Source of the DNA: Bifidobacterium breve | GTDB lineage: Bacteria; Actinomycetota; Thermoleophilia; Solirubrobacterales; Solirubrobacteraceae | Direction of reading: 5' to 3' | Assembly: GCA_945878865.1 (NCBI GenBank) | Contig: CAMCUD010000023.1 | Span: 1 to 64,000, forward strand | DNA length: 64,000 nucleotides | Position numbers and translations under genes: made by a program | The notes under the pieces: model-generated | Seen by the model: only the letters and a program-made list of their open reading frames with translations | The model's database searches: none | Told to the model about the DNA's origin: nothing | In this document: positions 35,844-35,986 of the stretch, one piece after another | Layout: every line of letters begins with the position of its first letter | Numbering within the stretch: the stretch's first letter is position 1

Positions 35844-35986
35844 TATGCTCCGCCGCGCCGTCGCGACTGGCGCCTTCTGAGGGTGGAACCGACCACCGGG
35901 GAGCGACGGAGCAGCACCGATTCTTCCGCCGCGCGCCTGGGCATCCGTCGTCCACCTCGATGACTCCGATCCTGCGGAGGAACGCG
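35844..35986 (+). promoter_or_regulatory. ZTP riboswitch (pfl motif) leader of serC-serA
   Basis: The leader matches the ZTP aptamer element by element. P1 is CCGTCG (35858-35863) with CGACGG (35904-35909). GCGACTGGCG is at 35863-35872. P2 is GGTGG (35882-35886) with CCACC (35893-35897). GGGGAGCG is at 35898-35905, and after a linker comes CGCCTGGGCA (35934-35943), the conserved pseudoknot segment. A TATGCT box at 35844-35849 puts the start of transcription right at P1. Downstream, CTCCG (35964-35968) can pair with CGGAG (35975-35979) and mask the Shine-Dalgarno sequence of serC, so ZTP or ZMP probably turns on translation. Confidence 0.88.

Follow-up and report, generated by a model that had tools for sequence, protein, structure and literature searches.

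ZTP (pfl) riboswitches (RF01750), RNA sensors of folate shortage, are 5′-leader elements of one-carbon-related genes with an architecture of P1, P2, P3, a pseudoknot and invariant residues (Weinberg et al., 2010, PMC2864571; Kim et al., 2015, through PMC7266159). The closest precedent for a link to serine synthesis comes from Bacillus and Oceanobacillus, where five tandem ZTP/glycine riboswitches lie before the gene that starts the conversion of 3-phosphoglycerate to serine (PMC9481103). A separate motif, the serC motif RNA, lies upstream of serC and serA (PMC7266159).

Here, we analysed a locus from a soil-type actinobacterium of the Solirubrobacteraceae (Solirubrobacterales, Actinomycetota), within a stretch of 64,000 nucleotides that we refer to as the window. 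Its serC-serA leader very probably holds a ZTP riboswitch that acts as an ON switch and raises serine supply under 10-formyl-THF shortage.

The serC-serA leader and its aptamer

When the whole window was scanned against 4227 Rfam families with cmscan, RF01750 (ZMP/ZTP) was the sole family above its gathering threshold, matching the plus strand at 35853-35949 over model positions 1-86 of 86 with 59.8 bits (threshold 39 bits; E 3.4e-7), and all upper-case residues of the consensus were matched. This is the single ZTP match in the whole 4.96-Mb genome, and it sits in the leader of serC. The features of the locus are as follows:

35844..35849, plus strand: -10 element TATGCT, with transcription predicted to start at about 35855-35857, the foot of P1 (sequence and comparison)
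35853..35949, plus strand: ZMP/ZTP riboswitch aptamer, RF01750 (cmscan, full length)
35858..35864, plus strand: P1 5′ strand CCGTCGC, outer pairs reaching 35855 (sequence, cmscan, covariation)
35869..35872, plus strand: pseudoknot 5′ half GGCG (sequence, cmscan; invariant in 50/50 serC-linked aptamers)
35882..35897, plus strand: P2 hairpin GGTGG/CCACC (sequence, cmscan, covariation alignment)
35903..35909, plus strand: P1 3′ strand GCGACGG (sequence, cmscan, covariation alignment)
35928..35942, plus strand: P3 hairpin GCC/GGC, its loop holding the pseudoknot half CGCC at 35934-35937 (sequence, cmscan; 100% paired in 50 serC-linked aptamers)
35964..35979, plus strand: possible anti-Shine-Dalgarno hairpin CTCCG/CGGAG, 35964-35968 with 35975-35979 (sequence; kept in two genus relatives)
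35976..35981, plus strand: Shine-Dalgarno sequence GGAGGA for serC (sequence)
35987..37135, plus strand: serC, phosphoserine transaminase, 382 aa (TIGR01366, 668.6 bits, cut-off 402)
37135..38736, plus strand: serA, phosphoglycerate dehydrogenase, 533 aa (TIGR01327, 592.6 bits, cut-off 454)

The conserved aptamer elements GACTGGCG, GGGGAGCG and CGCCTGGGC are present in the window sequence, and in the ligand pocket both CGCCUGGGC and the ACUGGCG region are intact and, in 50 relatives, invariant. An initial annotation had called a ZTP riboswitch with every conserved part in place, upstream of serC-serA, and had named the Rfam covariance model as its check. The full-length match, at 59.8 against 39 bits, bears this out, the parts lie where they had been placed (including P1 CCGTCGC/GCGACGG and P2 GGTGG/CCACC), and the TIGR01366 and TIGR01327 matches directly downstream of the aptamer identify the same target. 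Judged by its sequence, the element is a genuine ZTP riboswitch, and we infer that this copy binds the ligand.

In TGATG, the serC stop and the serA start have one base in common, and the two genes very probably share a single transcript. The same order recurs in 60 of 71 testable loci, where serA lies directly 3′ of serC and often overlaps it; in the genus Solirubrobacter and one other genus serA does not directly follow serC.

The initial annotation had also placed the start of transcription at P1, and comparison supports this: of 120 related loci, 98 have a TANNNT element that starts 8-10 bases 5′ of their aptamer, and because TATGCT at 35844 fits that spacing exactly, the leader would begin at P1. 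Upstream of TATGCT no match to a -35 consensus was found. Three genus members have the -10 element, aptamer, linker and start in common, and their sequence has diverged further upstream. On the same strand, 5′ of the serC operon, lies ilvC (ketol-acid reductoisomerase, 34079-35074; NF004017, 543 bits). Between the upstream gene stop and the serC promoter, a GCGGGCC-GTC-GGCCCGC-like hairpin without a T run occupies 35829-35842 and may form the end of the upstream transcript.

Covariation and distribution of the aptamer

We aligned 50 distinct serC-linked aptamers and counted pairs, using 500 shuffles and slid registers as controls. Paired cells amounted to 95% (91.0 in shuffles, at most 50% in slid registers), two-sided changes were seen at 11 of 22 pairs compared with 5.5 in shuffles, and the covariation score was 0.172 compared with 0.110 ± 0.005; none of the 500 shuffles equalled the alignment in any of the three measures. 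It is P1 that bears the covariation, with two-sided changes at 9 of its 10 pairs, and the pseudoknot and P3 are 100% paired yet nearly invariant.

RF01750 was matched in 102 of the 232 genomes of the window's order, Solirubrobacterales, in 67 of 299 sampled genomes of the class and in 45 of 397 sampled genomes of the phylum. We fetched 147 class-level ZTP loci and identified the next gene, which was serC at 76 and glyA at about 49; other targets were serA as first gene (one genus), AICAR-formyltransferase (PRK07106) and one formate-dehydrogenase group. Within the order, the aptamer precedes serC or serA in 80 of the 91 ZTP genomes examined, and 34 of those 80 carry a second copy before glyA. 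In the serA-first genus (four loci) the aptamer lies directly 5′ of serA, not serC, suggesting that the switch follows the pathway rather than one gene. Across 28 phylum-level loci serC was the target only in the window's order, the rest lying before glyA, purH-like and other genes.

By its SerC relatives in named genomes, the window belongs to Solirubrobacteraceae/Solirubrobacterales. The nearest of them, from a Solirubrobacteraceae MAG, is 87% identical to the window's SerC, and that of Solirubrobacter phytolaccae, which also has a ZTP aptamer ahead of its serC, is 76% identical. A core-motif scan before serC was positive at 5 of 80 named SerC relatives and found no aptamer at the other 75, among them all those from Mycobacterium, Nocardia, Pseudonocardia and similar relatives. 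When 20 of the 80 loci were run through cmscan, five matches were returned, all in Solirubrobacterales/Solirubrobacteraceae records; two Solirubrobacteraceae/Solirubrobacterales MAGs had no cmscan match before serC. The absence at 75 of 80 named relatives, together with the confinement to Solirubrobacterales in these 20 loci, argues against an aptamer ancestral to the SerC subfamily.

Two smaller groups in the class carry the aptamer elsewhere. In one family (four loci) it precedes a stand-alone AICAR formyltransferase of the PRK07106 type, an enzyme that uses up ZMP with 10-formyl-THF. In the other (L256:501-4802, also L257, L258 and L259; G291, G246, G271 and G251), aptamers are followed by apparent terminators (GGATGGCTTGGGTGTTTTTT and similar) and then by a TGA-interrupted frame. 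The open frame ends at a TGA inside CART-TGA-HAPTVAGL in 4/4 extended loci, and reading this codon as selenocysteine (CART-U-HAPTVAGL) gives, at L256, a 1375-aa protein in which a region resembling the NADPH oxidoreductase GltD is joined to formate dehydrogenase alpha, the latter making up the C-terminal half (TIGR01591, 860 bits, cut-off 666). Genomes of this type have selB over cut-off in 10 of 10 cases and fhs in 8 of 10. A literature search for ZTP riboswitches with formate dehydrogenase found no paper. On the side of formate supply, this arrangement would correspond to pfl, and it suggests that each lineage puts its ZTP sensor on its one-carbon-supplying step.

Expression platform and switch direction

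No intrinsic terminator was found at 35000-39000, which points to translational control of serC-serA. The initial annotation had proposed that a CTCCG/CGGAG hairpin hides the serC Shine-Dalgarno sequence. The hairpin itself exists, but it is no better than chance: in the three members of the genus, 27-37% of linker shuffles give a pairing of this strength, and taken together the serC leaders are not enriched for it. The hairpin was therefore rejected as evidence for an expression platform. Pairing of CTCCG with the CGGAG of the P1 3′ strand was also rejected, as it is unconserved and genus relatives read CGGCG there.

The P3 3′ strand of relatives, TGGGCAC, can pair with the ribosome-binding and start region, and of 24 aptamer segments it is the peak in both serC and glyA leaders, with the clearest signal in glyA leaders of several genera. 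The excess is 1.39 ± 0.27 for serC leaders and 3.53 ± 0.47 for glyA leaders (0.96 ± 0.36 and 3.25 ± 1.14, respectively, when averaged by genus). Without coding bases the genus-averaged serC value drops to 0.37 ± 0.41, which is not significant, and in the window's own genus the excess is 0.2, not above chance; this pairing, supported in relatives, was thus set aside as the mechanism of the window leader. In six glyA leaders the P3 3′ strand (GGGCACC/GGGCATC) is fully or nearly complementary to GGUGCCC over the Shine-Dalgarno sequence, which in several glyA leaders reads GGAGG, making GGGCACC/GGUGCCC in those leaders a clean candidate for a translational ON platform. Such complementarity is what an ON switch calls for, since the start would be released once P3 forms, and the design in these relatives reads as a translational equivalent of the ON design known at the level of transcription. 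Folding of three genus members with and without the aptamer changed start accessibility by +0.08, -0.01 and -0.15, changes too small and inconsistent for ensemble folding with an imposed aptamer to serve as evidence of direction, and folding of the complete leader is not better than that of its shuffles. The relatives, the riboswitch class and the metabolic setting together suggest that the window switch is ON.

An OFF switch, in which ligand-bound P1 would free the linker to cover the serC Shine-Dalgarno sequence and start so that high ZTP lowers serine synthesis, is improbable. Most reported ZTP switches are ON, the metabolic logic and the aptamer's shared use at serine genes and glyA within single genomes both favour that direction, and the P3-3′/start complementarity in relatives is as expected of it. 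What speaks for the OFF switch is that in the linker of the window's genus the P1 5′ strand is repeated as CCGTCG, which could pair either with the P1 3′ strand or, as GTCGTC, with GATGAC at the start codon, and that ZTP OFF switches have already been predicted, in tandem ZTP riboswitches 5′ of moeA (PMC9481103).

It is less probable still that the element is a degenerate or repurposed relic in which Z-nucleotide sensing or serC control has been lost. That no expression platform stands out above chance in the window leader would fit such a relic, but the consensus residues are complete, down to the invariant CGCCTGGGC, genus relatives have kept the aptamer, -10 box and spacing despite diverged upstream sequence, and serC-linked copies covary strongly. 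As for a chance RF01750 score, the intergenic stretch is GC-rich and its single-sequence folding energy unremarkable; nevertheless, the E value of 3.4e-7 covers the window and all 4227 families, the sole match in a 5-Mb genome is located in the serC leader, and the same place is occupied in 76 fetched loci, with covariation, so that this explanation is already refuted by the comparative data and keeps only a negligible probability.

Metabolic setting and relation to known systems

The window's genome (96% complete) encodes glyA, folD and gcvT, and no fhs was found in it; folD lies on the same contig, at window positions 11843-12307, and has no riboswitch match. FolD converts serine-derived methylene-THF towards 10-formyl-THF, and without fhs the established pathways require that 10-formyl-THF derive from serine or glycine. 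With glyA and folD present and fhs absent, serine/glycine looks to be the main one-carbon entry, and for that reason it is sensible to make more serine when ZTP gives the signal. This logic, already put forward in the initial annotation, is strengthened both by this gene content and by the serC, serA and glyA targets across the order. A match to fhs over cut-off is absent in 89 of the 102 ZTP genomes of the order; as a correlate of ZTP presence, fhs absence fell short of significance (fhs in 13/102 compared with 29/130 non-ZTP genomes, Fisher P 0.085).

We propose that transcription of the serC-serA leader would begin at the foot of P1, and that a shortage of 10-formyl-THF would let ZMP/ZTP accumulate and stabilise P1, the pseudoknot and P3. 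The ligand-bound aptamer would then most likely switch serC-serA translation ON, and the extra serine would pass one-carbon units into folate via GlyA and FolD. It is also fairly probable that in Solirubrobacterales, most of which are without formate-THF ligase, the ZTP alarmone governs a two-target regulon of serC-serA and glyA running from 3-phosphoglycerate to methylene-THF, and that folate starvation is met mainly by serine synthesis. Placement at serine genes is the usual arrangement in this actinobacterial order and no oddity, and serC-serA with glyA makes a concrete, testable regulon.

No description of the serC-serA arrangement turned up in our literature searches, which paired ZTP with serC, serA or phosphoserine and covered few subscription papers. 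The window shares with ZTP (pfl) riboswitches their full architecture and a 5′-leader position at a one-carbon-related gene, which here is serC-serA. The serC motif RNA, too, is a leader that precedes serC and serA, but it is a different motif, and the window matches RF01750 only (among 4227 Rfam families that do not necessarily include the serC motif). The ZTP-glyA leaders of the same genomes, and of others elsewhere in Actinomycetota, have the aptamer and promoter spacing of the window and precede the gene for the next enzyme from serine to one-carbon units; several show an obvious P3-3′/Shine-Dalgarno pairing, GGGCACC/GGTGCCC, whereas the window leader does not. Nearest in purpose are the tandem systems of Bacillus and Oceanobacillus, which likewise place phosphorylated-pathway serine synthesis under ZTP control, are predicted to be ON and rest on the same metabolic argument; those, however, stand in tandem next to an OFF switch for glycine and belong to Bacillota, whereas the window has a single aptamer with serC first, in Solirubrobacterales. 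ZTP control of serA is already published for Bacillus/Oceanobacillus and the target is known in principle (PMC9481103); here it is lineage-wide, with the ZTP alarmone shifted one step upstream, from the folate one-carbon enzymes to the serine synthesis that feeds them.
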